DNA of 64,000 bases. Source: Arachis hypogaea. Its lineage: Eukaryota > Streptophyta > Magnoliopsida > Fabales > Fabaceae. The notes beneath the pieces are model-generated. The model ran no database searches, was not told the DNA's origin, and was given only the letters and a program-made list of their open reading frames with translations. This document shows positions 13,017 through 54,958 of this stretch, one piece after another. Made by a program: the position numbers and the translations under genes. Every line of letters starts with the position of its first letter. The first letter of the stretch is position 1. The stretch is from the NCBI RefSeq assembly GCF_003086295.3, contig NC_092052.1:75509559-75573558 (forward strand). The letters are read 5' to 3'.

Positions 13017-13055
13017 GGCACCGAGGACGGTGCCAAGCTTTAAGTGTGGGGAGGT
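13017..13055 (+). promoter_or_regulatory. HP2-PPT module, internal copy (element A)
   Basis: Hairpin GGCACCG-AGGA-CGGTGCC (13017-13034), then the polypurine-like TTTAAGTGTGGGGAGGT (13039-13055). No LTR follows; this is the upstream copy of the module that also precedes the 3' LTR of A at 32518-32554. It begins five bases after the third-ORF stop. Confidence 0.65.
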
Positions 13056-13607
13056 CGGTCAGTACCTGACTTCTGGAGGTAATTTCTCTTTCTTAAAACC
13101 AATATAATAGGATATTTATTTATTTTTCTTTTGTTTAGGATAGGATAGATTGCATAGTAATAGGTTATTTGCATGCATGTTCTAATTGGTTGAAAAATAA
13201 TAAGTTTCTTTTTAAGACCCTATTTTTGAAAAAATTTCACTAATCTAAATCAAAATTTTTGTGTTAAACTTGTTTGAAGATTGTAATTTGGAACATAGTT
13301 TAAAGCTAAGAACACACAACCTGTGAGATTTGAGCTTAATTACATGGTTACATTATTTAACCATAATATTTTATTCTTGTGTGTTTGCTTCTTTATGCTT
13401 GTAATCTATATTTTGTTCCATCCTATATGTCCAATGTTTAATGTGTTATATGCATGCATATGATTGAGGCCATTATTTGATTATCAACTCACTTATCTCA
13501 AATAGCCTACCCTTCCATTCACCTTTATTAGCCACTTTGAGCCTTTTTATCCCATTTGTTCTATATTTTACCACATCACTAGCCTTAAGCGGAAAAATAA
13601 ATTAATT
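13056..13607 (+). other. Non-coding segment between the two HP2-PPT modules (A), left part
   Basis: AT-rich, no ORF. It aligns by eye with the same segment of H (about 29200-29520) and, inverted, with E (about 49640-49710): ACACACAACCTGTGAG, then AGCTTAATTACATGGTTACA, then GATTGAGGCCATTATT. The segment stops abruptly at 13607, where sequence from inside the H LTR begins. Confidence 0.6.
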
Positions 13608-14700
13608 ATCCCACCTTGAGCAGAACGCAAACGACGCGTACGCGTGATCGACGCATACGCGTGACAAGGAAAACTCCCAGATGACGCGAACGCGTGACAG
13701 ACGCCACGTACAAGAATCTGCAGAAAATGCCCCCAGCGATTTTTGGACCCTTTTTCGGCCCAAATCCAAGTCAGAAACACGGAATATAAGCCAGAGAATG
13801 GAGAAATCAAATAACAACTGAATGATAGATACAATATTCACAATTTTAGGTTTAGATGTAGTTTTAGAGAGAGAGATTCTCTCCTCTCTTTTAGGATTAT
13901 GATTTAGAATTTCTATTATGTTTAAGCTATGATCCCTTCAATCACAGGTTCAATATTCTTTTAGTTTATTTTCTCTTCTACTATTATTTATTGTATTACT
14001 TGAATTGATATTTATCTTTTCGCTTCGATTTATGAATTTTTCCATGTTAGGATTTTCTTAACTAATATAAATTGAGGTATTTTTAGATTTAATTTTGCTT
14101 TATTTTATTTATGAATGCTTTTAATTTAATTTAAGTTATTTTCCCCTTTTGGCTTTGGTTAAGTAATTAGTAACACTTGAGTTATCAAACTCAGCTGTTG
14201 ATTGAAATTGAAATTCTTTGCTGGTTAATTTGTACTCCAATAACTCTAGTCTTTCCATAGGAGTTGACCAGGACTTGAGGATCAAATTAATTAGTCCACT
14301 TGACTTTCCTTTGTTTAGCAAGGGTTAATTAAAGTGGGAGCACAATCCAATTCTCATCACACCTGATAAGGATAACTAGGATAGGACCTCAATTTCTCAT
14401 ACCTTGCCAAGAGATTTTATTATTATTAATTTATTTTTCTTATCATTTAAATTACTTGTTCTCTATTTCAAAAATCCAAAAATACACTTTTACTCATAAC
14501 CAATAATAAATCATACTTCCCTGTAATTCCTTGAGAAGATGACCCGAGGTTTAAATACTTCGGTTATAAATTTACTTGGATTTTGTTACTTGTGACAACC
14601 AAACTTTTGTACGAAAGGATTCTCTGTTGGTTTAGAAACTATACTCACAACGTGATAACATTTTTTATTAAATTCTATACTAGCGAAAATCGGATCGTCA
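13608..14700 (+). repeat. 5' LTR of element H, 5'-truncated
   Basis: Aligns to 30904-32001 of the 3' LTR with few differences, and ends GATCGTCA just before the primer site. The first roughly 385 bp present in the 3' LTR are missing. ACGCGT words lie at 13630-13700, and AATATAAGCC near 13782 is a possible TATA element. Confidence 0.85.
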
Positions 14701-14705
14701 AAAAA

Positions 14706-14723
14706 TGGCGCCGTTGCCGGGGA
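14706..14723 (+). promoter_or_regulatory. Primer-binding site, tRNA-Asp (element H)
   Basis: TGGCGCCGTTGCCGGGGA, all 18 bases complementary to the 3' end of plant tRNA-Asp, five bases after the LTR end. Confidence 0.95.
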
Positions 14724-15772
14724 TTTGCAAACGTGTGCCTTATTATTGGTTATTGTAAATATTTTATTTTGCTTGTTTATTTGTTTTTATTTTTGTTTTT
14801 AACTTTTAATTGTTACTATGAATTCTCACCACCGTCGCTTTGAGTTTGGTTCTAATGCTGTTGAAAGGAATAGAAGCTATAACAGGAACATGCATCAAGG
14901 TCAGAACAATCAGAGATGGATGGAGCCACGAGGATTTGATCAACCTTTTTGGAAACAACACCCTCCAAACTACCATGGGCAACGACCATTTAACAATGCA
15001 TGTTGAGACAATAGTTATAGTGGACCCCCTTGTAATTACCGACAAGCCCCGCCATATGCCTATGAACTACCTTCTCAACACAGATTTGAACCACCATACT
15101 CACAAGTCCCCTACCACCATTCACCTCCATATAACCCTAACCATTATCCACACCAATTCCGATCCAATTACCCCCAAGAACCATGATGACAAGTCATTTT
15201 ATGCTAGTTTTTCAAGCAATTTTCACTTGTTTTATAGATTTTATGCACTTTCTTGAGTTACAAGTAAGCCATTTGGGTAGAAATTCATGTGTACTTGGAT
15301 TCAATCAACCATGAGTAAATTGATGCATTTTCATGAGGTTTTGTGCTATAATTGCTTATATGTCAAGGACAAGAAGAAGTCTCATGATTTTAGCGTAGCT
15401 TTGATGCATTTGTTGATTGATGATAGGTGACCAAAAGACTTGAAGGAAGGTTGAAGAAAGGGGATGGCAGGAATGAAAATGAAGGCAGCATTGAGAATAT
15501 CATGTTTGAGTTCACGTTTGCCTCAAACGTGAACTCAAACGTGGATAACAGCACAACCTGAAGGGGTATACTTCCAACAAGAATAACTTGAGCTACAGAA
15601 CTCCAAATGAGGTGATTCAAAAAGCAATGGAAAGTAGGGATTAAGAGCATTTCAAGAATATATGGCACTACATGGTGAACACTAACATTGAGGGAGAGAA
15701 CTATCTTGAAAAGTGCATAAACGAACATGGCACCAACCTGTAGTAAGGCCAGCTGATCTCTGCATTTTTGAC

Positions 15773-15863
15773 GGAGCATAACTCGAGCTGTGGAGCTCCA
15801 AATGATGCGCTTCCAACGGCATTGGAAAGTAGACATACAGAGCTTTCCAACAATATATAATAG
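15773..15863 (+). promoter_or_regulatory. Shared LTR cassette (J 5' LTR)
   Basis: AGCATAACTCGAGCTG, GGAGCTCCAAATGATGCG, CTTCCAACGGCATTGGAAAG, TAGACATACAGAGCTTTCCA, CAATATATAATAG in order; TGGAAAG and CTTTCCA form an inverted pair. A diverged copy lies at 15581-15665. The same words occur in the same order in F, C and G LTRs. Confidence 0.65.
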
Positions 15864-15907
15864 TATGGGGGTGGACAGCACGTTTGAGCTTCTGAATCTA
15901 GCAATGT

Positions 15908-16256
15908 ACTCAACGTTTGCGCCAACATTTGCCTCAAACGTGAGGTCAAACGTTGGCTTAAAAGAAGCACCTGGGAGGACTCAACGTTTGTGCCAACGTT
16001 TGCCTCAAACGTGAGGTCAAACGTTGGCTTAAAGGAATACCCTGGAGGACTCAATGTTTGCGCCAACGTTTGCCTCAAACGTGAGGTCAAACGTTGGCTT
16101 AAAGGAATACCCTGGAGGACTCAATGTTTGCGCCAACATTTGCCTCAAATGTGAGGTCAAACGTTGGCTTAATAATATAGCCTGGAGGACTCAAAGTTTG
16201 CACTAATGTTTGCCTCAAACGTGAGGTCAAACATTGGCTGAAAATTACCTTGGGGA
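15908..16256 (+). repeat. 70-bp tandem repeat, five units (J 5' LTR)
   Basis: Units start at 15908, 15979, 16049, 16119 and 16189. Each contains AACGTTTGCCTC and GAGGTCAAACGTT, which can fold back on each other. The 3' LTR has four units. Confidence 0.9.
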
Positions 16257-16260
16257 GAAT

Positions 16261-16304
16261 CACGTTTGAGCTCACGTTTGACCTCAAACGTGAACTCAAA
16301 CGTG
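16261..16304 (+). repeat. 44-bp near-perfect palindrome (J 5' LTR)
   Basis: Two arms of 21 bases around a CC centre, with one mismatch; the left arm starts CACGTTTGAGCTCACG. Similar palindromes lie at about 15485-15530 and 16353-16392. All are built of CAAACGT/ACGTTTG words. Confidence 0.8.
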
Positions 16305-16519
16305 AGTTGCAGCAAACCCCCATTCTGCATGATGCCATTACAAGACGTTTGAGTCAACATTTTCCTCAAACGTTGACTCAAACATAAATGATCCTAAAGT
16401 CCATAGTACAAACGAATTTCTTCTCAAGACCAAAAACAATCAACAGAGGCTATCTTCAACCCAATTCCATCAAGGCCAAGGGCCCAAATTCAAGGCTTAA
16501 TGATAATTAGAAGGAAGTG

Positions 16520-16527
16520 TATAAATA
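16520..16527 (+). promoter_or_regulatory. TATA box candidate (J 5' LTR)
   Basis: TATAAATA in GAAGTGTATAAATAGAAG, a good plant TATA context. It is conserved at 23311-23318 in the 3' LTR. Transcription would start some 30 bases downstream. Confidence 0.6.
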
Positions 16528-17401
16528 GAAGCTAGTTTGATTTAGGAAAGGACCTTTTTCTTCTTTTAGAATTTTCACTTGTAATTTTGAGAGTTTTTAC
16601 TTTGATCTTAGAGAATTGGAAGGAGAATTGAGTTCTCTTCCTCTGGGTTTTCTTGTTTTATTTTCTGTAAAGCTTTGTTTGAGTCTTAAGTGTGAAGAAT
16701 TGAGGAAATTTTGTCTCACTCTCCTCTTAAGATCTCTTTGTTCAATTTACTGCACAATTCAAGAATTTGTGTTCTTCTTTACTGATTTTCATCTTCAATT
16801 CTCTTTAAATTATCTTCTAGATTGGATCAAGGAAGGCAGTGAGATCTAGACTTAGTTTTCTGGTCTCTTGACCCTTGAAATCTTGCATTTCCATTTAATT
16901 TATCTGCTGAATGTTTATACAAGCAAATTTACCTTTCTGTTTGAGATCTACTTCAATTCAATTCATCTTCTACTCTTCTGCTTGTTGCAATTTACTTGTG
17001 ATTGTTTAATTTCAGCACTCCCAATCCCCAAATCCTTTTATTGTTCAAGCCATTTACATTTCGTGCATTTTAAGTTTCAGTTATTTACATTTCTTGCAAT
17101 TTAAGTTTCTGCAATTTACATTACTTGCACTTTAAGATTTAGCTCTTTTAATTTTTTTGCACTTTAAATTCTTGTCAATTATCCCTCTCCCTTTAAATTT
17201 TATGCAATTTAGCTTCTGTTGGATACAAATCACTCAAATCAACTCTTGTTTGCTTGACTAAATCAACCACCTAACTAAAATTGCTCAATCCTTCAATCCC
17301 TGTGGGATCGACCTCACTCACGTGAGTTATTATTACTTGATGCGACCCGGTACACTTGCCAGTGAGTTTTGTGTTGGATCGCTTTTCACACATCAAGTTT
17401 T

Positions 17402-17419
17402 TGGCGCCGTTGCCGGGGA
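17402..17419 (+). promoter_or_regulatory. Primer-binding site, tRNA-Asp (element J)
   Basis: TGGCGCCGTTGCCGGGGA, a perfect 18-base match, six bases after the LTR end. Confidence 0.95.
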
Positions 17420-17581
17420 TTGATTAGATTGACAATGATTAAGTAAGGTGGTGGTCTTGATTAAGCATTTTTTTTCTTTTTCTTTTTACTAAGCATACTA
17501 ACTGTTTGAATTTTTGCTTAAGCTAACACTAACTTCACTCTAGCAATAGAGTGTTTAATTCTGGTTTCTGGTTCTGTGTTT

Positions 17582-20477
17582 ATGTCAGGAGGAAGAAACA
17601 ATAAATCCACACCTTTTGATCTTGAAACACTTTGGAGGTTGAGAGGAGAACCAAGAAATGGAGGAAAATTCAACAAATCTACCAGTGGGAGTGAGCAACA
17701 ATGCTTAACCTGCAAGGAGAGTCTTGGCTTCTTACACGTTTGCTAATCCTAGGCATTGTGGGAGTAGCATCCTTATCCCAAATGTCAATGCAAACAACTT
17801 CGAATTGAAACCTCAACTCACCTTGGTGCAGAATAACTGTTCTTATGGAGGAGGCCCCTTGGAAGATCCAAACCAGCACCTATCCACCTTTCTAACGATA
17901 TGTGACACAGTAAAGATCAATGGTGTGCATCCCGACACTTACAAATTGCTGTTATTTCCATTTTTCCTGAGAGACAAAGCTACCCAATGATTGGAGGCAT
18001 TTCCAAGAGAAAGCATCAATAATTGGGAGGATCTAGTGAACAAGTTCCTAGCTAAGTTCTATCCTCCCCAAAGGATCATCAAGCTAAAAACAGAAGTGCA
18101 AACATTCATTCAATTGGATGGAGAGTCACTGTATGATACTTGGGAGAGATACAAAGCTTTAATTAGGAAGTGCCCACCAGAAATGTTTAGTGAATGGGAT
18201 AGACTCCAAAACTTCTATGAAGGATTGACACAAAGAGCTCAAGAAGCTTTAGATTATTCAGCAGGAGGTTCATTACAACTTATGAAGACAGCTGAAGAAG
18301 CCCAAAACCTCATAGACACAGTGGCAAACAATCAATATTTCTATGCTCATCAAAGACAACGCCAACCATCTCAAAGGAAAGGAGTATTAGAATTTGAAGG
18401 TGTTGACACTATCTTGGCACAAAACAAACAGATGCACCAATAACTTCAGCAACAAATGGAGATTATGGCCAAGAAAATTGATGGACTGCAAAGTGTTGCA
18501 GTAAACACACAAAGCCAACCTCAAACCGCACATAGGTGGAAGCAATCTGAAGAAAGTTTTGGGGCATTCAATTATGAGCAACAAAGCCCTGAGAAGGTGC
18601 AATGCATGAATAACACTTCAAGTTCATTTCAACACAATTTTCATGGTGATGCACACAAGACACCCTGGAAGACTCATTCTAATTCAAGGTGGGGTGAGCA
18701 TCAGAATCAAGGACAAATGGACTTCAACTCTGGCAGCCTTAGCAACACAAACAACCATAAACATTCATCCAATAATACTAACCAATTCAAAAATTCACAA
18801 AACACATGTCACCAACCCCATAACGACTCACAAAACCACCAGAATAACTTGTCTACATCCACATTCCACCCACAAAACACCCTCGCAAATGGTTCAAACA
18901 ATTTCCAGCAACAACCATCTCATTTTACACAACCACAACCAAATCCAGACTCTCAAAGAATCTCTAGTTTGGAGATGATGATGGAGAAACTCATGAAAAA
19001 TCAAGAGATGGCAAGCAAAAACCAAGAAGCGTCAATCAGAAACCTTGAGAGGCATATGGAGCAAATGGCTAAGCAAATTTCAGAAATGGGTGAGAAGAGA
19101 GCAATTACCTTCCCCAATGTCACTGATAGAGACAAAGAAAAAGCTACAAAGTGGGAGGAGTGCAAAGCAATCATAGTGAAAAGTGAGGAGACTAGGGAGA
19201 AGGAAGCCATTAATCAAGAAGAACACAACAGAGAAGTTCCACAAGAAGAGACAGAAGAGAAAAGTGAAGAGGATAGAAAGACCAAGAATGCAAAATGCTC
19301 AAAGAGAGACAAAAACATCCTTGAGCCACAGCTACAAGAGAAGAAGGAAGGGGTGAAGTCATATGTCCCTAAACTTCCATACCCTCAAAGGTTTCGGAGA
19401 GAAAACGAGGATAAACAATACTCAAAATTCCTGGATATATTCAAGACCCTCAGCATCAATATTCCTTTTTTAGAAGCACTTGAATAGATGCCATTATATG
19501 CCAAATTTATGAAAAAAGTACTCACAAAGAAAATATCCCTGAAGGAAGGACGGATTGTTGAGATGACAAAGGAATGTAGTGCTACCCTCCAAAGAGAGTT
19601 GCCAGAGAAGAAAGATGATCCTAGGAGTTTTTACATACCTTGCACCATAGGAAACATAACAATTGAGAAGTCATTCTGTGACCTCGGTGCAAGCATAAAC
19701 TTGATGCCTTTGTCTCTAATGAGGAAACTTCAAATTTCTGAGCTGAAATCCACACGAATACTCCTGCAAATGGCTGACAAATCCATCCAGCAAGCACTTG
19801 GAGTTGTAGAGAATGTACTGGTAAAAGTAGGAAAATTCTTTCTCCCAGCTAATTTTGTCATCCTGGATATGGAGGAGGACCCTAACACTCCCATCATTCT
19901 GGGGAGGCCTTTCCTGGCTACGGGCAGAGCATTGATAGACGTTGAAAAAGGGAAATTGTTGCTGAGAGTACATGATGAGCACCTACCATTCCATGTTTTT
20001 AAAACCCTGCATGAGCCCACTCAAGAAGAAGATTGTATGAAGGATAAGGCCAGAGATCAAAGCTTGAAGGAGACAGTCAATGAGTTAACTCCAAGACTTC
20101 TAAATCCATGCTTGAAAAAAGTAGAAATGGTACAACAGACCAAAGAAATCAAGGAGGAACTAGATCCAAAACCCCCAGATGAGAAACTTAACACCTCAGA
20201 TAAAGAGCCACCAAGGCATGAATTATCTTCTGAGAAAGTAAAGAAGAAGAGGCCAAAAGGGTGGAGAAACAAGAATATCCCCACTGAAGGCTTCTCACCA
20301 GGGGATAAAGTGATGTTAAACACCCAACCAATAAAGGTGTTTCCACAATTATCTGAGTGCTATACTGTGAACCGGATCCTTTCACTTGAATACCTAGAGA
20401 TCATCAAAGAGCAGACTGGTAGGAAGTTCACAGTAAGAGGAGAAAAGCTGAGGCACTATGATTTTCAACCCCCATGA
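17582..20477 (+). pseudogene. gag: gag-protease with an integrase-like C-terminal tail (element J)
   Basis: ATG 17582 opens a short head (MSGGRNNKSTPFDLETLWRL) that shifts frame before about 17724. From there one frame of about 918 codons runs to 20477, broken only by TGA 17988, TAA 18441 and TAG 19485. Order: gag domain ([44 protein letters not shown]), N/Q/H-rich linker, coiled-coil-like E/K-rich stretch, protease with DLGASINLMP (about 19681) and ILGRPFLATGRA. The tail (FSPGDKVML, GRKFTVRGEKLRHY, about 20295-20460) looks like the integrase C-terminal domain. I see no zinc knuckle. An internal deletion of RT to integrase core would explain it. Confidence 0.85.
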
Positions 20478-20520
20478 TCAAAGGATGAGATGTCAAGCTA
20501 GTGACAATAAAGAAGCGCTT

Positions 20521-20538
20521 GTTGGGAGGCAACCCAAC
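20521..20538 (+). ncRNA. Hairpin HP1 after the ORF stop (element J)
   Basis: GTTGGG-AGGCAA-CCCAAC, perfect 6-bp stem, 44 nt after the stop. Compared with A, a stem pair is changed on both sides (G-C to T-A), so pairing is kept. Confidence 0.6.
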
Positions 20539-22019
20539 CTGAGGTAGTTCACTCTTCATAGCTATTTCAATAAAAGGGTTAATTAGACTTATCTATATTG
20601 CAAAGAGCTAAGTTTGGTGTTGCACACCAAAATAAATTAAGGGAGAATGAAGGATTCTAAGTTTGGTATTCCACCAAAATCTCATTTAAAAGCACATTCT
20701 CACTTTCTGCATACATGGCTGCTAGCTCCAAGCAATCAGATAAACCGATTAACCAATTGTTTACTTTTTAGTTTTTCTAGTTTTTATTGCCTTTAACAAA
20801 GATAAAAGGATTTCACATATGGTTAACCTGTTGCATTAGAGGCATTGGCAAGAAATTAAGTTTGGTGTTTCCATACCAAAATAAGTTTGAAAGCCGCCTT
20901 AAATTCATGCATATTAACCATCTACTTAAGGGCTTGAGAAGCAAGCCACTTTTGAGAATTATGCAGGAAAGAAGCCAACATTTGGAGACAGTCTGTATTA
21001 TGACTCAAAAGGGATACAACAGGAGGAAGAATGAAAAGCTGCAACCCGAAAGGTTGTGTCTACACTTAATCCTTGTTGTTGAAGAAGTACTTTAAATTGG
21101 GAATTCTTGTATGTCTTACTAAAGTGTTCAATTGGTTGCAAGTGGAATTGTTTGTCAAGAATACTGATCTGCATAATGCTTGTTGCCCATTACTTAGCTT
21201 GAGTTTTGTTTTGTTCTCATACACTTGAATAAAAGAGAAATGTTTGAATTAGGAAGTAAATATCCAATGTTGCATAAGTTAGAATAAAAGTTAGTGGTGG
21301 TATTTGTTGATTTAATGCATGGCTCATAAAATAAATGCTACATAATGATATGTTCTTTGAAGAAGGAACTAGTTTACTGTTAGAAATGCTTGTATCATTA
21401 AAGATTCCTTGAGAATGAAATAAAACAAAAATAAAAAGAAAAAGAAAAAGGCAAGAATGGCAAAGAAATCAAATAATAAGGCTAGGCACCAATAGCTTGG
21501 ACCCTAGGACACATGTCTGTGGTGTTTTTGTGGTAGGATATGCTTGGACAAGTAAGTTCTAAGGAGTATTTCAAAACTTTGCCACTTAGATCAACTTATT
21601 TGGGATTGCCAACTGAAAGTCCACAATAAAGACCAACCTAGCTACAAAACACTTAGTTATCCAAAGAGATGCTGGGCATCAATGATCCTAGGAAGAAAAG
21701 GGTGAGCCATGTGTCTGTGGTGAAGGAATGTTGAGCAAAATTAAGCCAAAGACTACTGCAACATTTGCCACCAAGCCTTCAAAGAACAATAAGCTCTCTG
21801 AGCAAAACAGAGAAGGAAAAGTTAGTAAGGGAACAAGCAAAAGTAAAGCCTTATAGCAGCAAACTTAGTGATCCTTTGAGGAAGCATCTCCTATGTAACA
21901 GCAAGCAATAAATGAGCCACCATTGTCTGCATAAAAACCCCATGAACCAAGTTCAACTATATGCTCAATAAGGATATGCATACTTCTCTGTTTCATTTCA
22001 TTCCCTCTTATGTTTGATG
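20539..22019 (+). other. 3' non-coding region of element J
   Basis: No convincing gene. The word AAGTTTGGTGTT or a close variant occurs at about 20610, 20660 and 20858 before the true PPT at 22041. A diverged duplication pairs about 21483-21600 with 21670-21775 (shared words CCTAGG and TGTGTCTGTGGTG or ATGTCTGTGGTG). An ORF at 20787-21095 has no recognisable domain and I do not call it. Confidence 0.6.
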
Positions 22020-22056
22020 CTTGCTTGGGGACAAGCAAGGTTTAAGTTTGGTGTTG
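22020..22056 (+). promoter_or_regulatory. HP2-PPT module before the 3' LTR (element J)
   Basis: Hairpin CTTGCTTG-GGGA-CAAGCAAG (22020-22039) with a perfect 8-bp stem, then TTTAAGTTTGGTGTTG (22041-22056) abutting the LTR. The G-rich run next to the LTR is the expected place of the plus-strand primer. Confidence 0.75.
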
Positions 22057-24186
22057 TGATGACAAGTCATCTTATGCTAGTTTTTCAAGCAATTTTTCAC
22101 TTGTTTTAAAGATTTTATACACTTTCTTGAGTTACAAGTAAGTCATTTAGGTAGAAATTCATGTGTACTTGGATTCAATCAATCATGAGTAAATTGATGC
22201 ATTTTCATGAGGTTTTGTGCTATAATTGCTTATATGTCAAGGACAAGAAGAAGTCTCATGATTTTAGTGTAGCTTTGATGCATTTGTTGATTGATGATAG
22301 GTGACCAAAAAGCTTGGAGGAAGGTTGAAGAAAGGGGATGGTAGGAATGGAAATGAAGGCAGCATTGAGAAGATCACGTTTGAGTTCTCGTTTGCCTCAA
22401 ACATGAACTCAAACGTGGATAACAGCACAACCTGAAGGGGTATACTTCCAACAAGAATAACTTGAGCTACAGAACTCCAAATGAGGTGATTCAAAAAGAA
22501 ATGGAAAGTAGGGATTGAGATATTTCCAAGAATATATGGCACTACATGGTGGACACTAACATTGAGGGAGAAAACTGCCTCGAAAAGTGCATAAACGAAC
22601 ATGGCACCAACCTATAGTAAGGCCAGCTGACCTCTGCACCTTCGACGGAGCATAACTCGAGCTGTGGAGCTCCAAATGATGCGATTCCAATGGCATTGGA
22701 AAGTAGACATTCAGGGCTTTCCAAAAATATATAATAGTATGGGGTAGACAGCACGTTTGAGCTTCCGATTCTGGCAATGTACTCAACATTTGCGCCAACG
22801 TTTGCCTCAAACGTGAGGTCAAATGTTGGCTTAAAAGAAGCACCTGGGAGGACTCAACGTTTGTGCCAACGTTTGCCTCAAACGTGAGGTCAAACGTTGG
22901 CTTAAAGGAAAACCCTAGAGGACTCAACATTTGTGCCAACGTTTGCCTCAAACGTGAGGTCAAACGTTGGCTTAAAGGAATACCCTGGAGGACTCAACGT
23001 TTGCGCCAATGTTTGCCTCAAACGTGAGGTCAAATGTTGGCTGAAAATTACCTTGGGGAGAATCACGTTTGAGCTCACGTTTGACCTCAAACGTGAGTGA
23101 CAACAAACCCCCATTCTGCATGATGCCATTACAAGACGTTTGAGTCAACGTTTTCCTCAAACGTTGACTCAAACGTAAATGATCCCAAAGTCCATAGTGC
23201 AAACGGATTTCTTCTCAAGACCAAGAACAATAAACAGAGGCTATCTTCAACCCAATTCCATCAAGGCCAAGGGCCCAAATTCAAGGCTTAATGATCATTA
23301 GAAGGAAGTGTATAAATAGAAGCTAGTTTGATTTAGGGAAGGACCTTTTTCTTCTTTTAGAATTTTCACTTGTAATTTTGAGAGTTTTTACTTTGATCTT
23401 AGAGAATTGGGAGGAGAATTGAGTTCTCTTCCTCTGGGTTTTCTTATTTTATTTTCTACAAAGCTTTGTTTGAGTCTTAAGTGTGAAGAATTGAGGAAAT
23501 TCTGTCTCACTCTCCTCTTAAGATCTCTTTGTTCAATTTACTGCACAATTCAAGAATTTGTGTTCTTCTTTACTGATTTTCATCTTCAATTATCTTTAAA
23601 TTGTCTTCTAGATTGGATCAAGGAAGGTAGTGAGATCTAGACTTGGTTTTCTAGTCTCTTGACCCCTGAGATCTTGCATTTCCATTTAGTTTATCTGCTG
23701 AATGTTTATACAAGCAAATTTACCTTTCTGTTTGAGATCTACTTCAATTCAATTCATCTTCTACTCTTCTGCTTGTTGCAATTTACTTGTGATTGTTTAA
23801 TTTCTGCACTCACAGTCCCCAAATCCTTTTATTGTTCAAGCCATTTACATTTCGTGCATTTTAAGTTTCAGTTATTTATATTTCTTCCAATTTAAGTTTC
23901 TGCAATTTACATTACTTGCACTTTAAGATTTAGCTCTTTTAATTTTTCTGCACTTTAAATTCTTGTTAATTATCCCTCTCCATTTAAATTTCATGCAATT
24001 TAGCTTCTGTTGGATACAAATCACTCAAATCAACTCTTGTTCGCTTGACTAAATCAACCACCTAACTAAAATTGCTCAATCCTTTAATTCCTATGGGATC
24101 GACCTCACTCACGTGAGTTATTATTACTTGATGCGACCCGGTATACTTGCCGGTGAGTTTTGTGTTGGATCGCTTTCCACACATCA
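22057..24186 (+). repeat. 3' LTR of element J (2130 bp)
   Basis: Same ends as the 5' LTR, with four instead of five 70-bp units (22781, 22852, 22922, 22992). The shared cassette is at 22649-22738 with a diverged copy near 22455-22540. TATA box at 23311. Followed by the duplication AACCA and the rest of the H ORF. Confidence 0.92.
22781..23059 (+). repeat. 70-bp tandem repeat, four units (J 3' LTR)
   Basis: Same unit as 15908-16256, one copy fewer. The retained first and last units are identifiable by their ends (AAAAGAAGCACC and CTGAAAATTACC), so the missing unit is an internal one. Confidence 0.88.
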
Positions 24187-25315
24187 AACCACCACTTCCC
24201 TATGCACCATATCCATATTCATCAACCCAAGAGTCAATTGGGGAACATCTCAAGGAAACAGTGAATAAATTTCACGCAACCCTTCACCAATTGGATCAAG
24301 CGATAAATCGATTACCTCCCCGACGTTTGGACACTCAAGGAACCCCCATGGCTTTATGTGGACAATATAATGAAGAACGTAGCATAAAAGAGATACTAGA
24401 AACTCCAGTAGACAGTACAGAGCATGACTTTGTACTGGAACAAGTGGAGGAAGCTGTAATTATCGAAGAAGAAGAATTGGTTGAAGACTTAGGAGATGCT
24501 GAATCTCCATGAGAATCCAGAACTGAAGAGAACTCCATCAAGAATTTTGCAACTAATGCTAAGGAGGACAGTGCACAACCCCCAAGGCAGGTATCTTATG
24601 AAGAACTGGACGGAACAACTCAATAAACGAGCTTCCCTGGTGATGAAAATCACAGGTCAAGTTCTCCTAATAATGAGCTTGCATCCGCAAGTGAATTCTT
24701 TGAGATTGAAGAACCTTCCCCAAGTGAGTATGAAGATGATGCGGAGGTAGACTTTTCTCAACCTCCAAATTATGACTCGAGTGATGAGAAAGATATTGAA
24801 GACTTTGCTCAAGACATGGTTGCAGCTGAAGAAAATTACAAAGAAGTGGAAGAATTCACAGAAGAATACAAGGGATTAGAGCTTGCAAAACCACTGGAAA
24901 CACCTATCCCAAGGCCATTACCGCCCAATACAAACTTCAAGTGGGTAAAATCCTAAGCTTTTATCTTTACTTTTCCACTTGAATATGGTTTGCTTGAAAC
25001 AAATGGCCATCTTAGAGCTCTTTGCGGCTTTAAGAGTAAAAGGGAACTGGTTCGTACTCAGAGCTGGTATGCAAGATTCAATAAGGTTCCACACTTCAAT
25101 TTGAAGTGCAAGGAATGGTATCAAGTTAGATTGAATGGGTCTCGGAGAATGTTTGGTTACACTGTGAGAATACAACTTCCAAACCGCACGGCTGAAAAAA
25201 ATATAGATCAAGAAAAAGGCGGATGCAAAAGTAAGGTTTGGGATCTAGGAATATATTCTGACATTCAACACCCCAGAAGCCAGAGAACCTGTTTGAAACT
25301 GCTCAAAGGCTTCAC

Positions 25316-25735
25316 AAGCCACGCGTGGGCGTCGATTGAAAATCGGCGTAAAGATCCAACACCCAGAAAGTTGGGCTGGAATTGTGCGGCTGGTGTGCTT
25401 TTAGCACAAATTGGCCCACGCGCTCGCGTCCCTAACGCGAACGCGTCACTTGTACCACACACACACCCCACGCGAAAGCGTGAGCGATGCGTACACGTCG
25501 CATGGATTTTAGGAAATCTATTGGAAACAGAGAGTTGCACCAAAATGATGCTGGAATCGTGCGTTTAGCACAATTCTGAGCGACGCATACGCGTGCCCCA
25601 CGCGTACACATCACTTTCATTATCCCACAATCATGTGATCGCATCAATAATGCGTCTGCGTCAGAGCCCTTTTCGTCCCAGTCACGCGATCGCGTGCTCC
25701 ATGCGTTCGCGTGAATTCAAAATCACTAACCCCAA
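25316..25735 (+). repeat. CG palindrome array after the ORF (element H)
   Basis: CGCGTCC, ACGCGAACGCGT and ACGCGATCGCGT words over about 400 bp. It starts in the middle of the ORF's expected C-terminus, so the end of the ORF and hairpin HP1 were deleted here. Confidence 0.7.
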
Positions 25736-26240
25736 CCCACGCGAAACCTACCCTTTTTGCATCACCAAAACCCCCTCCCCCTCTGCACTCTCCCGTTCCC
25801 CATCCCCCAACCACCACCACTCCCAACCAACCAGCTCCGACCACCGCGCTACCATCCCGACCGCCGCACCACCCTCGCCGAATCCCCTCCCTTCTTCTTC
25901 TCCCCCTTCCCTTCTTTCCCCTTTCCTCCTCCCTCCACGCCCCTACCCCACTGCCGCCACCCCGTTCCAAGCTGCCCAGCGCCGCCGCCACCTCCCAGAC
26001 CTCCAGCCAACCACCCACCAGCCACCACAACCCCCAACCCCCTCCTCACCTCTTCTCCTCAACCCTCATCCACCCAAACCCACCACACAGCCCCCTGCCC
26101 CACCACAGAGCACCGCCGCGGCGCCACCCATCACCGCTGTGTCACCAACACCACCACCACATTCCCACCATCTCTCTGATCCGTACATTTATTCCTCTCA
26201 GCACCAGGTTCCACCGAACACTGAACCCTGTTTCCCGTTA
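25736..26240 (+). other. C-rich tract (element H)
   Basis: About 500 bp of CCACC, CCTCC and CCCAAC words with hardly any G. All three plus frames stay open for long stretches because of composition, giving proline-rich translations; none has a recognisable domain. It lies where A has its C/T run, so it is probably the same pyrimidine-rich segment with a different base balance. Confidence 0.6.
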
Positions 26241-27189: not shown

Positions 27190-28662
27190 ATGTCTGACCC
27201 CAAAAGTAAAGGAAAAGGCAAAGCAATCATTGGCAAAAGGAAAAAAGGAGAATCCTCTACCTCTATTTTGGATATCCTCCACGACGATTCCTGGTGGAAA
27301 AAGAATTTCACCCCGCAGGAAAAGGCTGATCAATTGGTGCCTGCCACTGACCCAGAAAAATTTACAAACAAATACTGTGAGCTGAAATACCCAGTTTTTG
27401 CCACTTCTAGGAACCTATACTTAGAAAGGACCTTCAAAATTTCAGAAGAACTCAAACAATACACTTCAGACCAAATTAAACAGAGAGGCTGGTTCTTCTT
27501 GGAAAGGAACTTGACTGAAGTTAACTCATCATGGGTCAGAGAATTCTACTGTAACTATTTCAAAACGACCTTGGATGCAGTCCAACTCAGAGGGAAGCAA
27601 ATTCTGGTTACTGAGGAAGCCATTGAAGAAATCCTTCACCTCCTGCCTAAATCAGATCAACCGGATGGGTACCAAAAGGCTGAAGAGGATATGAGATTCA
27701 TGCAATTTGATTGGGATGCAGTGAAGCAGAGAATCACCATTGATCCTACTGTCCCATGGGTCATGGGCAAGAACACTGTTACTCCAAAAGGAATCAAGCT
27801 CATCTATCTGAATGATGAGGCTCGGCTTTGGCATCAAATTTTGAGAAACTACGTGATGTCGAGCACTCATGAGACAGAGCTGCCAGCTGCTATGATTACC
27901 CTCATCTGGTGTGTGATGGAGGGAAAAGACTTATATCTACCCCGCTTTATCCAGTATTACATGGCCAGAGTCCATAGCAGAGGCACCCTTCCTTTTCCAT
28001 ACCTGATCACTCAGCTTGGCTGCCAAGCTGAGGTGGCCTGGGAGCTAGCAGATGAGAAGCCTACCGCCGCGGACTGCAAGAAGATTATTCCTCACAGCAG
28101 GAAGTTTCAGGTTTTGGACTACAGACCTCCATTCCTCACTGCCTCTGGCGACGCAGCCACATCTTCTGCCACCCCTTCTACATCCACTGCCCCACCAGCC
28201 ACCGCTGCCCCCTCACCTGCTTTAGAGCCCATCTACCACCTCGTGCATTGACTATGTGACCGGTTGGACCAGATGGAGCGCCGCAACCAGCGGCGATATG
28301 AGAGATCTGAGCGTCGTAGCAAGCGATGCTATGAGCACCTAAAGTTGATGATCCGATCTGGCCACCATGACATCCCCTCCGAGCCTGACACCCCTTCAGA
28401 GACATCTAATGCGGAGGCGGACGATCACGAGGAGGAGGTCCGTGCAGCAGCTGAGCAGGCAGGACCTAAGCAGGTTGCGCCACACCATGAGGAGCCCCAT
28501 CAGATACAGACCGCAGACCCAGAGATCCCTCTACAGGCAGAGCCCCCACTGCAGTAGTCAGACCCTCCGACACTCATCCAGACTACAGAGCCTCAGACCA
28601 CCATAGAGACACCCACTGCCCATCCTTCCGGAGATGACACTTCTCACACCCAGCTTGAGTGA
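27190..28662 (+). pseudogene. Third ORF (env position), element H, nearly intact
   Basis: One frame of about 490 codons with two point stops (TGA 28249, TAG 28555) and a natural-looking TGA at 28660-28662, whose last base is the first base of hairpin HP2. Head basic (KSKGKGKA, GKRKKGESS), suggesting nuclear import. Core: WVREFYCNYF, LRGKQILVTEEAIEEIL, FMQFDWDAVKQRI, ARLWHQILRNYVMSSTHE, LIWCVMEGKDLYLPRFIQ. After the first stop a charged helix (MERRNQRRYERSERRSKRCY) and an acidic proline-rich tail follow. The core resembles the putative plant transposon protein family. No signal peptide or membrane segment is visible. Function unknown. Confidence 0.75.
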
Positions 28663-28700
28663 GCATTAAGGATGATGCTATTATTTAAGTGTGGGGAGGT
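28662..28700 (+). promoter_or_regulatory. HP2-PPT module, internal copy (element H)
   Basis: Hairpin AGCATTA-AGGA-TGATGCT (28662-28679; seven pairs, one of them T-G), then TTTAAGTGTGGGGAGGT at 28684-28700. It overlaps the last base of the third-ORF stop codon. The second copy lies 1.8 kb downstream before the LTR. Confidence 0.65.
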
Positions 28701-30302: not shown

Positions 30303-30375
<73 letters not shown>

Positions 30376-30480
30376 TAGATAATAATTAGAATTGTATGAT
30401 TCATGTAGGTAGTTTGCATTTAGAATAAATTGCATTGCATAAGATTCCGCCATTCTAACTTTACCCTTTCTCTTGGATTT
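28701..30480 (+). other. Non-coding segment between the two HP2-PPT modules (element H)
   Basis: About 1.8 kb, AT-rich, no credible ORF. It contains blocks shared with A and E (CACACAGCCTGTGAGTTT near 29213, GATTGAGGCCATTATT near 29370, TTGGCCCCATTACAACCTTG near 29967, GAAGACCTCATGATGTTTG-like near 29990). A TA microsatellite lies near the end. Confidence 0.65.
30304..30373. repeat. TA dinucleotide microsatellite, about 35 units
   Basis: Uninterrupted TATA run of about 70 bases in the 3' region of H. The tyrosine-isoleucine ORF on the minus strand is its translation. Likely length-variable between individuals. Confidence 0.98.
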
Positions 30481-30517
30481 AGCATGAGGACATGCTATTG
30501 TTTAAGTGTGGGGAGGT
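30481..30517 (+). promoter_or_regulatory. HP2-PPT module before the 3' LTR (element H)
   Basis: Hairpin AGCATG-AGGA-CATGCT (30481-30496), then TTTAAGTGTGGGGAGGT (30501-30517) abutting the LTR start TGATAAACCC. This is the expected plus-strand primer position. Confidence 0.75.
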
Positions 30518-32517: not shown

Positions 32518-32554
32518 AGCATGAGGACATGCTAATGTTTAAGTGTGGAGAGGT
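32518..32554 (+). promoter_or_regulatory. HP2-PPT module before the 3' LTR (element A)
   Basis: Hairpin AGCATG-AGGA-CATGCT (32518-32533), then TTTAAGTGTGGAGAGGT (32538-32554) directly before the LTR. Confidence 0.75.
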
Positions 32555-41139: not shown

Positions 41140-41157
41140 TCCCCGACAACAGCGCCA
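41140..41157 (-). promoter_or_regulatory. Primer-binding site, tRNA-Asp (element C)
   Basis: Minus strand TGGCGCTGTTGTCGGGGA, 16 of 18 matching; both changes are C to T. Confidence 0.88.
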
Positions 41158-44519: not shown

Positions 44520-44525
44520 AGTTTT

Positions 44526-46404: not shown

Positions 46405-46453
46405 CAAGGACCCTATCAATTGTCTAACTTAAGGACAATAAATAAAAGTGCTA

Positions 46454-46471
46454 GGTGGGAGACACTCCACC
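46454..46471 (+). ncRNA. Hairpin HP1 after the ORF stop (element D)
   Basis: GGTGGG-AGACAC-TCCACC: five Watson-Crick pairs and one G-T, 49 nt after the stop. The preceding AAGTGCTA is the same as in A. Confidence 0.6.
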
Positions 46472-48446: not shown

Positions 48447-48482
48447 ACCTCTCCACACTTAAACCAAGCATGTCCTCATGCT
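48447..48482 (-). promoter_or_regulatory. HP2-PPT module before the 3' LTR (element E)
   Basis: Minus strand: hairpin AGCATG-AGGA-CATGCT (48482-48467), TTG, then TTTAAGTGTGGAGAGGT (48463-48447) abutting the LTR. Confidence 0.75.
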
Positions 48483-49942: not shown

Positions 49943-50096
49943 ACCTCCCACACTTAAAAGTTTGCACCGTCCTCGGTGCACTCAAAGATGAGCAAGGGGG
50001 TACAGCGACTCTTCGAGTTGCTACCTTCAGCTGGTAGGTCAACCGGTTGCTGCGTGTTCTTTTCTTCTGCTTCCGTTTTTGCTTATAACAAAACAT
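49842..50096 (-). pseudogene. Shortened third ORF (element E)
   Basis: Minus-strand ATG at 50096 follows CAG|G, as in A and H. About 84 codons: a basic head (YKQKRKQKKRTRSNRL) and then sequence that runs through the internal HP2-PPT module. The large conserved core of the third ORF is missing, so a deletion joined the first codons to the 3' end. What remains is a nuclear-import-like basic peptide; whether it is made is unknown. Confidence 0.5.
49943..49980 (-). promoter_or_regulatory. HP2-PPT module, internal copy (element E)
   Basis: Minus strand: hairpin TGCACCG-AGGA-CGGTGCA (49980-49963), then TTTTAAGTGTGGGAGGT (49959-49943). The stem differs from the E copy before the LTR but equals that of A's internal copy except for the outer pair. 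Confidence 0.7.
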
Positions 50097-51373: not shown

Positions 51374-51391
51374 GGTGGGGTGTCTCCCATC
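51374..51391 (-). ncRNA. Hairpin HP1 after the ORF stop (element E)
   Basis: Minus strand GATGGG-AGACAC-CCCACC, 48 nt after the stop: five pairs and one A-C mismatch. The preceding AAGTGCTA is conserved. Confidence 0.55.
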
Positions 51392-52850
51392 TAGCACTTT
51401 TATTTATTGTCCTGAAGTTGGACTTATGGGGAGCTCTCGTTAAGGTGGCTTGTGCTTGTACTCATCCTTGAACATCCACCAACGCTTGGACTTCCAATAA
51501 GCTCCATCGTTCAATGTTAATATCTCCAAGCTTTGATGGAGTTCTTCACAAGCTAAGGGCTCCCAAAATTGATCCTCGTGTATGCCGGGATCCCATATCT
51601 TGTTTCTACACCCATCTTCAAATTGATCATCGTTATCCCATTTGGGTGGTAAGCAAGATGAATTCTCAATGAAGTGCCAAATGCTCCTCCTAGACCCATC
51701 TAATTGAGAACTAGTCCAACCTTTGTATCTTGGTGCACGAAATTGTGATCTCCAGGCTCGAACAAATCCTGGTAATGGCTCCAAAGCTTGGTGCTCTGAT
51801 CTTAATTCATAATTGTCACAACTTCGATACAACTAACCAGCAAGTGCACTGGGTCGTCCAAGTAATACCTTACGTGAGTAAGGGTCGAATCCCACAGAGA
51901 TTGTTGGTATGAAGCAAGCTATGGTCACCTTGTAAATCTCAGTCAGGCAGATATAAAGTGATAATGGTGTTTTCGAATTTAATATAATAAGACAGGGATA
52001 GAAATACTTATGTAAATCATTGGTAGGAATTTCAGATAAGCGAATGGAGATGCTTTTCGTTCCTCTGAACCTCTGCTTTCCTGCTATCTTCATCCAATCA
52101 GTCTTACTCCTTTCCATGGCTGGTTTTATGTGATACATCACCACTGTCAATGGCTACTTTCTGTCATCTCTCGGGAAAATGATCCAATGCCCTGTCACGG
52201 CACGGCTAATCGTCTGGAGGCATCACCCTTGTCAATGACTTCATCTTATCCTCTCAGTGAATAATATGCTCACGCACCCTGTCACGGCACGGCTATTCAT
52301 CTGTCGGTTCTCGATCATGCTGGAATAGGATTTACTATCCTTTTGCGTCTGTCACTAACGCCCTGCAATCGCGAGTTAGGAGCTCGTCACAGTCATTCAA
52401 TCATTGAATCCTACTCGGAATACCACGGACAAGGTTTAGACTTTCCGGATTCTCTTGAATGCCGCCATCATTCTAGCTTACGCCACGAAGATTCTGGTTA
52501 GGAGATCTAAGAGATATTCATTCTAGCTTAATTCATGTAGAACAGAAGTGTTTGTCAGGCACGCATTCATAGGGGAGAAGGATGATGAGCGTCACACATA
52601 ATCATCACCTTCATCACGTTCTTGGGTGCGAATGGATATTTTAGAAGCGAAATAAGAAGAATTGAATAGAAAACAGTAGTACTTTGCATTAATCTTTGAG
52701 GAACAGCAGAGCTCCACACCTTAATCTATGGAGTGTAGAAACTCTACCGTTAAAAATACATAAGTGAAAGGTCCAGGCATGGCCGAGAGGCCAGCCCCTC
52801 TGATCTAAGAACCAGGCGTCCAAAGATGTCAAATACAATAGTAAGAGGTC

Positions 52851-52860
52851 CTATTTATAA
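52851..52860 (-). promoter_or_regulatory. TATA box candidate (F LTRs)
   Basis: Minus strand TTATAAATAG, followed by GACCTCTTAC. Conserved at 60954-60963 in the 5' LTR, where it would drive the element RNA. Confidence 0.6.
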
Positions 52861-53114
52861 TAAACTAGCTACTAGGGTTTACATGAGTAAGTATTTGATG
52901 TATAAATCCACTTCCGGGGCCCACTTGGTGTGTGTTTGGGCTGAGCTTAAGTGTTGCACGTGCAGAGGCCATTTGTGGAGTTGAACGCCAGTTTTTGTGC
53001 CAGTTTGGGCGTTCAACTCTGGTTTTGGATCCTTTTCTGGCGCTGGACGCCAGATTTGGGTAGAAAGCTGGCGTTGAACGCCAGTTTACGTCGTCAATTC
53101 TTGGCCAAAGTATG

Positions 53115-53227
53115 GACTATTATATATTGCTGGAAAGCCCTGGATGTCTACTTTCCAACGCAATTGGAAGCGCGCCATTTTGATTTCTGTAGCTCTAGAA
53201 AATCCACTTTTAGTGCAGGGAGGTCAG
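53115..53227 (-). promoter_or_regulatory. Shared LTR cassette (F 3' LTR)
   Basis: Plus strand: TATTATATATTGCTGGAAAG, CCCTGGATGTCTACTTTCCA, ACGCAATTGGAAGCGCGCCA, TTTCTGTAGCTCTAGAAAAT, then AGGGAGGTCAG. The other F copy is at 61218-61330. Confidence 0.65.
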
Positions 53228-53459
53228 AATCCAACAGCATCAGCAGTCCTTTTTCAACCTCTGAATCTGATTTTTGCTCAAGTCCCTCAATTTCAGCCAG
53301 AAAATACCTGAAATCACAGAAAAACACACAAAATCATAGTAAAGTCCAGAAATGTGAATTTAACACAAAATCTATTAAAAACATCCCTAAAAGTAACTAG
53401 ATCCTACTAAAAATATACTAAAAACAATGTCAAAAAGCGTATAAATTATCCGCTCATCA

Positions 53460-53497
53460 CAACACCAAACTTAAATTGTTGCTTGTCCCCAAGCAAC
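53460..53497 (-). promoter_or_regulatory. HP2-PPT module before the 3' LTR (element F)
   Basis: Minus strand: hairpin GTTGCTTG-GGGA-CAAGCAAC (53497-53478), perfect 8-bp stem, then TTTAAGTTTGGTGTTG (53475-53460) abutting the LTR. Confidence 0.75.
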
Positions 53498-54516
53498 TGA
53501 AAATCAAAATAGGATAAAAAGAATAGAACATACTATAAATTCCAAACTATCAATGAAACATAGCTTCAATCATATGAGCGGGACTTATAGCTTTTTGCCT
53601 CTTGAATAGTTTTGGCATCTCACTTTATCCATTGAGGTTCAGAATGATTGGCATCTATAGGAACTCAGAGTTCAGATAGTGTTATTGATTCTCCTAGTTC
53701 AGTATGATGATTCTTGAACACAGCTATTTTATGAGTCTTGGCCGTGGCCCTAAGCACTTTGTTTTCCAGTATTACCACCGGATACATAAATGCCACAGAC
53801 ACATAATCGGGTGAACCTTTTCAGATTGTGACTCAGCTTTGCTAAAGTCCCCAATTAGAGGTGTCCAGGGTTCTTAAGCACACTCTTTTTTTTGCTTTGG
53901 ACCTTGACTTTAACCGCTCAGTCTCAAGTTTTCACTTGACACCTACACGCCACAAGCACATGGTTAGGGACAGCTTGGTTTAGCCGCTTAGACCAGGATT
54001 TTATTCCTTTAGGCCCTCCTATCCACTGATGCTCAAAGCCTTGGGATCCTTTTTATTTGCTCTTGCCTCTTGGTTTTAAGGGTTATTGGCTTTTTGCTCT
54101 TGCCTCTTGGTTTTAAGAGCTTTTGGCTTTTTCTGCTTGCTTTTTCTTTCTATTTTTTTTTCGCCTATTTTTTTTTTTTGCAAGCTTTGCTCTTTGCTGC
54201 TTTTTCTTGCTTCAAGAATCATTTTTATGATTTTTCAGATTATCAAATAACATGTCTCCTAGTCATCATTCTTTCAAGAGCCAACATATTTAACATTCTT
54301 AAACAACAACTTCAAAAGACATATGCACTGTTCAAGCATACATTCAGAAAACAAGAAGCATTATCACCACATCAATATAATTAAACTAAGTTCAAGGATA
54401 AATTCAAAACTCATGTACTTCTTGTTCTTTTGAATTAAAACAGTTTTTATTTTAAGAGAGGTGATGGATTCATAGGACATTCATAACTTTAAGACAGAGT
54501 TACTAACTACTAATGA
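53498..54516 (-). other. Non-coding segment between modules (element F)
   Basis: About 1 kb of this 1.4-kb interval has no credible ORF. It contains TGTGTCTGTGGC (minus, near 53800), which also occurs in J's 3' region. A repeated TGCTCTTGCCTCTTGGTTTT unit (54058 and 54097) forms a short tandem duplication. Confidence 0.6.
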
Positions 54517-54883
54517 TCATGTAATGAAGACACAAACATAGATAAGCACATAACATAGAAAATGAAAAACAGAGAAAGTAAGAACAAGGAATGAGTCCAC
54601 CTTAGTGATGTCCTTGAGCTCTTCTATGTCTCTTCCTTGCCTTGGCTGCTCCTCCTTCATTGCTTTTAGATCTTCTCTGATTTCATGAAGGATGATGGAG
54701 TGCTCTTGATGTTCCACCCTTAGTTGCTTCCAATAATTGTGTGGAAGAAAATGTATCCCCTGAGGTATCTCAGGGATCTCTTGATTTGCAGTCAAATGTT
54801 CTACCACTGAGCTATAGACCCTTGATGGAAGCTTTTGTCTTCCCTTTCCTCTTTCTAGAGGTTTCTCTGGCCTTAGGTGCCAT
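54517..54883 (-). pseudogene. Remnants of a small third ORF (element F)
   Basis: Minus-strand ATG at 54883 opens 23 codons with a basic, nuclear-signal-like core (SRKRKGKTK), ending at TAG 54814-54812 inside a tRNA-like sequence. In another frame 54807-54517 continues with a charged, probably coiled-coil stretch (VEHQEHSIILHEIREDLKAM, EEQPRQGRDIEELKD). The basic head recalls the third ORF starts of A and H. The tRNA-like insert probably broke one original ORF. Confidence 0.45.
54771..54821 (-). pseudogene. tRNA-Cys-like fragment inside element F
   Basis: Minus strand begins GGGTCTATAGCTCAGTGGTA and includes CATTTGACTGCAAATCAAG. This is the first two thirds of a plant tRNA-Cys: A-box, D-arm and anticodon arm with loop CTGCAAA (anticodon GCA). 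Compared with my memory of plant tRNA-Cys about five bases differ, all C-to-T or G-to-A changes. The T-arm is replaced by CCCTGAGATACCTCAGGG, which can still fold, but no B-box and no 3' acceptor strand are present, so it cannot be a working tRNA gene. Confidence 0.6.
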
Positions 54884-54922
54884 CAATGGTTATGGAAAAA
54901 AACAAAAAAGCTATGCTTTTAC

Positions 54923-54958
54923 CACACCAAACTTAGAATGTTGCTCGCCCTCGAGCAA
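54923..54958 (-). promoter_or_regulatory. HP2-PPT module, internal copy (element F)
   Basis: Minus strand: hairpin TTGCTCG-AGGG-CGAGCAA (54958-54941), then CATTC and TAAGTTTGGTGTGG (54935-54922). It lies 1.4 kb upstream of the copy next to the LTR. Confidence 0.6.

Follow-up and report, generated by a model that had tools for sequence, protein, structure and literature searches.

A 2012 review termed the structural basis of primer recognition at the polypurine tract (PPT) "elusive" (PMC3362945), and by our reading work on PPT recognition has centred on human immunodeficiency virus (HIV) and yeast. For Ty1 and Sireviruses, secondary structure near the PPT has been suggested as an aid in forming the primer (PMC2829016). 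Here we describe a short hairpin that lies just upstream of the PPT, and of internal PPT-like words, in Athila-like Ty3/gypsy retrotransposons of peanut, Arachis hypogaea. It was read in a stretch of 64 kb (RefSeq NC_092052.1, positions 75,509,559 to 75,573,558), called the window below; all coordinates are 1-based within it, and (-) marks the minus strand. The proposed module would comprise a pyrimidine-rich stretch, a hairpin of 6–8 base pairs (bp) with an RGGR loop that is usually closed by a G-C pair, and a PPT word that begins 9–11 nucleotides (nt) past the loop.

The nearest known structure is the inverted repeat described by Bousios et al. (2010) around the junction of the PPT and the long terminal repeat (LTR) in Sireviruses and in nearly half of the classic Ty1/copia elements (PMC2829016). 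According to that account, the repeat is absent from upstream PPTs and was proposed as an aid to PPT primer formation. Common to both systems is a precisely placed inverted repeat that borders the PPT of plant LTR retrotransposons. The Sirevirus-type arms, however, average 28 or 19 bp, with letters conserved in Sireviruses, whereas the peanut hairpin is short and self-contained and its letters vary. The right arm of the Sirevirus-type repeat lies inside the 3' LTR, with the PPT in the loop, whereas both peanut arms lie upstream of the PPT. While the Sirevirus-type repeat is missing from upstream PPTs, 32 of 41 sampled internal words of the peanut G-type carry the hairpin; and the first belongs to Ty1/copia, the second to Ty3/gypsy.

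Other systems share single features with the peanut module. Athila4 and Calypso have one extra PPT (Wright and Voytas 2002, as cited in PMC2829016), which likewise lies in the linker upstream of the terminal one, although the citing passage mentions no hairpin. In the central PPT of lentiviruses and foamy viruses, the internal tract matches the 3' PPT fully or almost fully, as in peanut (PMC4393142, PMC6669543). That tract sits in mid-genome, in pol, whereas the peanut internal word lies some 1.5–1.8 kb before the 3' LTR, where large open reading frames (ORFs) are lacking, and has a hairpin. The Ty3 map obtained by selective 2'-hydroxyl acylation analysed by primer extension (SHAPE) places the PPT itself in a base-paired region; this is a Ty3/gypsy element with its PPT within structured RNA, but the SHAPE passages describe no upstream tetraloop hairpin (PMC11381356). 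An element immediately upstream of the PPT of simian immunodeficiency virus is essential, going by the title of Ilyinskii and Desrosiers 1998 (via PMC4393142). It resembles the peanut module in being a cis element directly upstream of the PPT; in the virus, replication requires it. This viral element is reportedly a U-rich sequence and not a hairpin. The peanut module belongs with structures beside retroelement PPTs, and its arrangement differs from that of the Sirevirus-type repeat; among the open-access papers that our searches listed, no title or opening of an abstract describes such a hairpin at Athila-like PPTs, and priority is not certain.

The initial annotation of the window spoke of eight places and listed nine hairpins. 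Read directly from the letters, all nine are present, with 1–4 nt between the maximal stem and the word that follows, slightly tighter than the 1–5 nt first given. On both strands together the window holds 12 hairpins that have an RGGR loop and a stem of 6 bp or more, 9 of which directly precede a PPT word; the remaining three contain G-U pairs and have no PPT word after them. The exact-word pattern scanned for the PPT, TTTAAGTKTGG, occurs 11 times and has a hairpin at eight. The ninth hairpin precedes a TCTAAGT word at 54937 (-), such that the TTTAAGTxTGG type named at first applies to eight of the nine, the word at 49958 (-) being one G shorter. The exact words without a hairpin, at 389, 40700 and 40770 (all -), stand in AT-rich surroundings, and no LTR start was seen after any of the three. 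By chance, a hairpin of at least 6 bp with any 4-nt loop ends 0–6 nt upstream of 3.3% of the 127,760 positions on the two strands of the window, and the addition of an RGGR loop lowers this rate to 0.066%. Five of the nine hairpins precede a terminal PPT adjoining a 3' LTR, a class defined by the words at 32538, 22041 and 53475, which end exactly before the LTR starts at 32555, 22057 and 53459. For these five the original placement next to the plus-strand primer is right, while those at 13017, 28662, 49980 and 54958 precede internal PPT-like words.

The same arrangement recurs throughout the host genome, an assembly of 2.557 Gb, in which exact words were counted on both strands with reversed words as a control. 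The G-type word TTTAAGTGTGGNGAGGTNNNNNNNC occurs 18,997 times and the T-type terminal word TTTAAGTTTGGTGTTGTGATGA 49,860 times, with no match to either reversed word; the counts for TTTAAGTGTGGNGAGGTCG, TTTAAGTHTGGGGAGGT and TTTAAGTNTGGNGGGG are 13,503, 1,041 and 76 (reversed, 0, 1 and 11). Among 100 G-type places listed, many form pairs about 1.5 kb apart, made up of one internal and one terminal word; in the pairs listed, the internal word is mostly followed by CG and the terminal word by TGATAAAC or TGACAAAC. Register was scored as the closing pair and loop (GAGGAC, that is G, AGGA and C) 8–10 letters before the word, with AGGA as the only loop for the G-type. GAGGAC stands in register at 16,419 of the 18,997 G-type words (86.4%), and at T-type terminal words GGGGAC (35,860) and GAGGAC (9,038) together account for 90.0% of the 49,860. 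When the gap was enlarged by ten letters, in a control run for the G-type only, GAGGAC was found at 1 word.

To describe single copies, we drew 135 word instances from the window, from 98 loci that each span 3 kb and from 8 short stretches. Removal of duplicates from overlapping loci left 121 sites. Of these, 110 belong to the module class; the other 11 are words in internal tandem units, degenerate words in the middle of elements and words present by chance. The words of L005 and L125, perhaps not true modules, count as misses within the 110. A free search, which accepted any 4-nt loop on a stem of at least 5 bp with a gap to the word of at most 6 nt and left loop letters and distance open, found a hairpin at 95 of the 110 module-class sites and at none of the 11 other words. 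By class, the yield was 29/32 for G-terminal, 32/41 for G-internal, 4/4 for T-internal and 30/33 for T-terminal sites. The loop stood 9–11 nt from the PPT in 93 of the 95 hairpins and read AGGA in 67, GGGA in 21, AGGG in 4, AAGA in 1 and TTGC in 2; the two TTGC hairpins (17 nt) are an alternative pairing at sites where a GGGA loop also lies 10 nt from the word. Many misses come down to one substituted letter in a stem or loop that is otherwise normal. A restricted search recovered 104 of the 110 sites, with the first six pairs all standard in 94, and placed a loop in register at 36 of 41 G-type internal words; because it scored only purine loops at 9–11 nt, the search itself partly dictates which distances and loop letters it reports. 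At 63 terminal sites it put the loop 25–27 nt from the LTR, partly as a result of the imposed register, and the base of the maximal stem lies 17–21 nt from the LTR at 62 terminal instances. The distance from hairpin to PPT is nearly fixed. Since internal G-type words carry the hairpin too, it accompanies the purine word and not the LTR junction.

Pairing is kept while the letters of the stem change between families. Among 32 distinct stems, 0.906 of cells pair, compared with 0.580 (standard deviation 0.043) when right arms are reshuffled and a maximum of 0.723 in 2000 reshuffles, a statistic that ignores relatedness. Grouped into ten classes, the stems pair with their own partners at 70 of 70 positions, whereas permuted partners give a mean of 42.2 (standard deviation 5.8) and none of 100,000 permutations reaches 70. 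Only the contrast between own and permuted partners counts here, because the ten classes were picked by hand among pairing stems; three are single-copy (AGCATTG, AGCATTA, and GGCACCG with CGGTGCC), and the classes cannot be counted as ten separate events. Covariation, folding, stem-to-LTR and G-U statistics were computed before the final removal of duplicates, which left the 32 distinct stems unchanged. Pair types that differ on both sides occur at all seven positions, at position 1 by way of a single A-U stem. The outermost pair is T-A, G-C or A-T in TGCACCG, GGCACCG and AGCACGG, and the second pair is C-G or G-C. Terminal stems AAGCATG/CATGCTT and TAGCATG/CATGCTA differ in both letters of the outermost pair; the combinations AAGCATG/CATGCTA and TAGCATG/CATGCTT, in which these letters do not pair, exist too, at 2 sites each. 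Another series passes through G-U, from AGCATCG/CGATGCT to AGCATTG/TGATGCT to AGCATTA/TGATGCT.

Both pairing tests, together with the map of elements in the window, uphold the central claim of the initial annotation, that in five elements a hairpin with covarying arms goes with the PPT word. Its wording that stem bases differ completely yet always pair was too strong. The classes do differ, but all ten share a GC step in each arm, and in 8 of 10 the loop is closed by G-C. Pairing is complete in the nine window hairpins but not in all copies, where the 224 cells of the 32 stems include 13 G-U, 6 A-C and 15 other mismatches. On the sense strand the excess of G-U over A-C cells is not significant (13 versus 6, p=0.084; 2 versus 0 in stems found at two or more sites) and leans weakly towards pairing in the RNA strand.

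The simplest reading of the module is a signal that makes or protects the plus-strand primer. We give roughly even chances to the proposal that it is a cis-acting RNA unit of Athila-like Ty3/gypsy elements that fixes this primer, a role we infer from the arrangement. Reverse transcriptase (RT) copying the RNA 3' to 5' would pass the PPT and then meet the hairpin 17–21 nt from the junction of the PPT with U3. A pause, or a factor bound at the stem, could hold RT in such a way that RNase H cuts at the junction, and a primer of about 17–21 nt would be spared from RNase H. Internal copies would supply a second plus-strand start, like the central PPT. HIV-1 PPTs are cut mainly to primers of 17 or 19 nt (PMC4393142). 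A broader proposal, which we hold more tentatively and rate at somewhat under even, is that a covarying RGGR hairpin, some 26 nt upstream of the LTR start and present again in front of an internal PPT, is an undescribed RNA element of Athila-like retrotransposons, conserved in structure, by which plus-strand starts are chosen through structure and sequence and not by the purine tract alone, probably across flowering plants. In tens of thousands of natural copies, the primer word is joined to a conserved structure whose distance from it hardly varies. Should the hairpin prove to position the primer, primer recognition could be tested with short RNAs. The module also offers a sharp signature for annotating the 3' ends and internal PPTs of elements.

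Several observations weigh against a role in primer formation, or narrow it. At internal T-type words GAGGGC is in register at only 1,855 of 9,700, and when a slightly shorter word was used and the loop could be any purine one closed by G-C, set at 10 nt exactly, the count was 2,250; by these counts, most internal T-type words have no hairpin or another form of it. There seems to be an internal T-type subfamily of this kind. Among the places listed, the distance to the terminal word tends to be about 1.4 kb for internal T-type words with GAGGGC and is about 2.07 kb for many that lack it, although neither group is uniform; examples without the AGGG hairpin in G000 are C1:2499354 and C1:9214217. 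Element B of the window has a terminal hairpin only, with no internal module seen. The predicted stability of AGCATG stems is modest, at -6.6 to -7.9 kcal/mol. Some differences at positions 4–6 may be one base pair gained or lost and not substitutions, and copies within a family are not independent, so the effective sample is about ten stem classes from one genome. Lastly, the polymerase and RNase H sites of Ty3 are estimated to be about 13 bp apart (PMC5371799); this does not match 17–21 nt, and a literal ruler may therefore be wrong.

Predicted folding is a weaker line of evidence. Compared with dinucleotide shuffles, the energy z-scores of three of nine modules are -1.08 to -1.19 and those of the other six -2.3 to -4.5; such scores alone do not prove a hairpin. 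In 200-nt context the predicted mean pairing probability of the stem is 0.75–0.89 by class; its minimum is 0 in three of the classes, through stems that are broken or fold otherwise. Pyrimidines make up 74% of the 25 nt upstream of the stem and 50% of the 100 nt before those (79 modules). The PPT is predicted to be more paired than its surroundings (0.31 versus 0.44 unpaired), and the mean predicted pairing of PPT bases with the pyrimidine stretch is 0.50 for G-terminal, 0.315 for G-internal and 0.046 for T-terminal words, the T-terminal PPT being predicted to pair further upstream instead. Composition can account for this pairing signal.

Roles in packaging, at the DNA level or at the transcript level are less likely alternatives. 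G-rich loops bind nucleocapsid in retroviruses, and in the 95 freely found hairpins the loop letters are far more conserved than the stem letters, which suggests recognition by a protein and not mere bulk. The purine loop with its exposed G might therefore be a binding site for Gag nucleocapsid in packaging or dimerization, with proximity to the PPT secondary. We consider this unlikely, as packaging would need no register of 9–11 nt at both internal and terminal G-type words. By definition the inverted repeat is there in DNA too, and little separates terminal modules from the end of the LTR; next to the PPT, the minus strand might fold into a hairpin, or the double strand into a cruciform, that serves strand displacement, second-strand transfer or integrase. 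Internal modules, however, have no adjoining LTR end, it is on the RNA strand that the conserved loop consists of purines, and the direction of the G-U excess, though not significant, is contrary to pairing in DNA; a function at this level is improbable. Equally improbable is a role in the transcript before packaging, in splicing, 3' end formation, stability or nuclear export, with the pyrimidine stretch as part of the signal. The pyrimidine content before the stem would suit such a role, as would the TTTTCAG with which the stretch ends in most sampled T-type terminal copies, similar to a 3' splice site. It would leave the coupling to the PPT unexplained, and three window intervals that separate internal from terminal words lack a large ORF, their longest stop-free runs being 80, 103 and 123 codons.

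That the module is only history, one ancestral unit of hairpin and PPT duplicated and spread with its families and now without function, is very improbable. Sampled stems are nearly identical within families, and much of the copy number is accordingly inheritance; yet stem classes differ while each pairs with its own partner, and neutral change in decayed copies takes the form of single mismatches. Chance or low-complexity origin is ruled out by the shifted-gap control and the window chance rates, and coding constraint by module peptides that differ, frames that end nearby and the lack of a shared reading frame.

Searches beyond peanut brought no confirmed relative. An Rfam 15 scan of the whole window gave no family above the gathering threshold at the hairpins. 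In IMG/VR a 16-nt word gave 19 matches, in near-identical viral contigs with a stem of at most 4 bp upstream and no relatives among them, a shorter word gave 24 matches, and an integrase search for relatives found none. Prokaryote contigs gave no match. Peptides read across the modules gave named protein matches only in Arachis hypogaea (two, at 87–88% identity) and in no other named plant.

The modules appear to lie in five elements, three of them nested in others; the LTR pairs come from self-comparison of the window (Table 1). Element A (2952-34092, +) contains element C (about 13612-32001, +, with an incomplete 5' LTR), inside which element B (15184-24187, +) is nested. Element D runs from about 46957 to beyond the window end (-), judging by the repeat 46957-47870/63085-64000, and contains element E (51729-61562, -). 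A, C, D and E, four of the five, each have one internal and one terminal hairpin, of different sequence. The internal and terminal words are 1,817 nt apart in C, 1,495 nt in D and 1,462 nt in E; in A the nested C lies between them.

Table 1. Hairpins, purine words and one adjacent reading frame in the window.
Feature	Position	Strand	Remark
ORF with PF20167 (Transposase_32), env-like position	12076..13011	+	element A; stop codon ends 5 nt before 13017
Hairpin TGGCACCG-AGGA-CGGTGCCA	13016..13035	+	internal module, outer element A
Internal PPT-like word, element A	13039..13055	+	internal type assigned by genome pairs
Hairpin CTTGCTTG-GGGA-CAAGCAAG	22020..22039	+	terminal module, element B
Terminal PPT, element B	22041..22056	+	3' LTR from 22057; LTR pair 15184-17396 / 22057-24187
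Hairpin AGCATTA-AGGA-TGATGCT, one U-G pair	28662..28679	+	internal module, element C
Internal PPT-like word, element C	28684..28700	+	
Hairpin TAGCATG-AGGA-CATGCTA	30480..30497	+	terminal module, element C
Terminal PPT, element C	30501..30517	+	putative LTR start 30518, from similarity to LTR at 2952
Hairpin AGCATG-AGGA-CATGCT	32518..32533	+	terminal module, element A
Terminal PPT, element A	32538..32554	+	3' LTR from 32555; LTR pair 2952-4489 / 32555-34092
Terminal PPT, element D	48447..48463	-	putative LTR start 48446, from similarity to other LTRs
Hairpin AGCATG-AGGA-CATGCT	48467..48482	-	terminal module, element D
Internal PPT-like word, element D, one G shorter	49943..49958	-	
Hairpin TGCACCG-AGGA-CGGTGCA	49963..49980	-	internal module, element D
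Terminal PPT, element E	53460..53475	-	3' LTR from 53459; LTR pair 51729-53459 / 59832-61562
Hairpin GTTGCTTG-GGGA-CAAGCAAC	53478..53497	-	terminal module, element E
Internal PPT-like word TCTAAGTTTGGTGTGGT, element E, TCTAAGT type	54921..54937	-	
Hairpin TTGCTCG-AGGG-CGAGCAA	54941..54958	-	internal module, element E

The position of the primer-binding site (PBS) and the protein domains support the assignment of these elements to the Athila/Calypso type of Ty3/gypsy, and with it the Athila-type placement in the initial annotation. The PBS word TGGCGCCGTTGCCGGGGA, which we take to be the complement of tRNA-Asp, is exact at 14706 (+), 17402 (+) and 59827 (-), has one mismatch at 4495 and 44526 (+), and two or three at 41157, 659 and 63081 (-). 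It begins 5 nt past the LTR ends at 4489, 14700 and 17396 and 4 nt past that at 59832. For Calypso and Diaspora, a PBS complementary to tRNA-Asp that begins 5 bp past the LTR has been described (PMC1142308). Element A, the only one in which the full domain order was seen, has gag (PF03732), RVT_1 and rve/H2C2, followed by the PF20167 ORF; this is the gypsy order of gag, RT and integrase with an extra ORF after integrase. Elsewhere among the ten pieces scanned, the domain matches were PF20167 in C, an aspartic protease in B and gag in E. As in Athila4 and Calypso, an extra PPT lies in the linker, 1.46–1.82 kb upstream of the terminal one (C, D and E; in A across the nested insertion).

PPT-like words without RGGR hairpins were also seen in these elements. 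Tandem units of 33 nt, each with TCTAAGTTTGGTGTT, occupy 55714-55780 (-) of the window and 418-484 (-) of locus L007, and hold several such words 5' of element E's internal module. Some G-type elements have a third PPT-like word, of degenerate sequence, about 0.8–0.9 kb before the terminal word, for example at 29564 (+) and 49354 (-) of the window and at L026 673, L029 638 and L034 693. The one Rfam match in the window, snoR71 at 57339-57446 (+; 41.6 bits, gathering threshold 40), lies on the strand opposite the gag ORF of element E and is perhaps a chance match or a captured stretch resembling a small nucleolar RNA. Both LTRs of element B contain an array of 70-nt tandem repeats (15868-16303 and 22741-23097, +).

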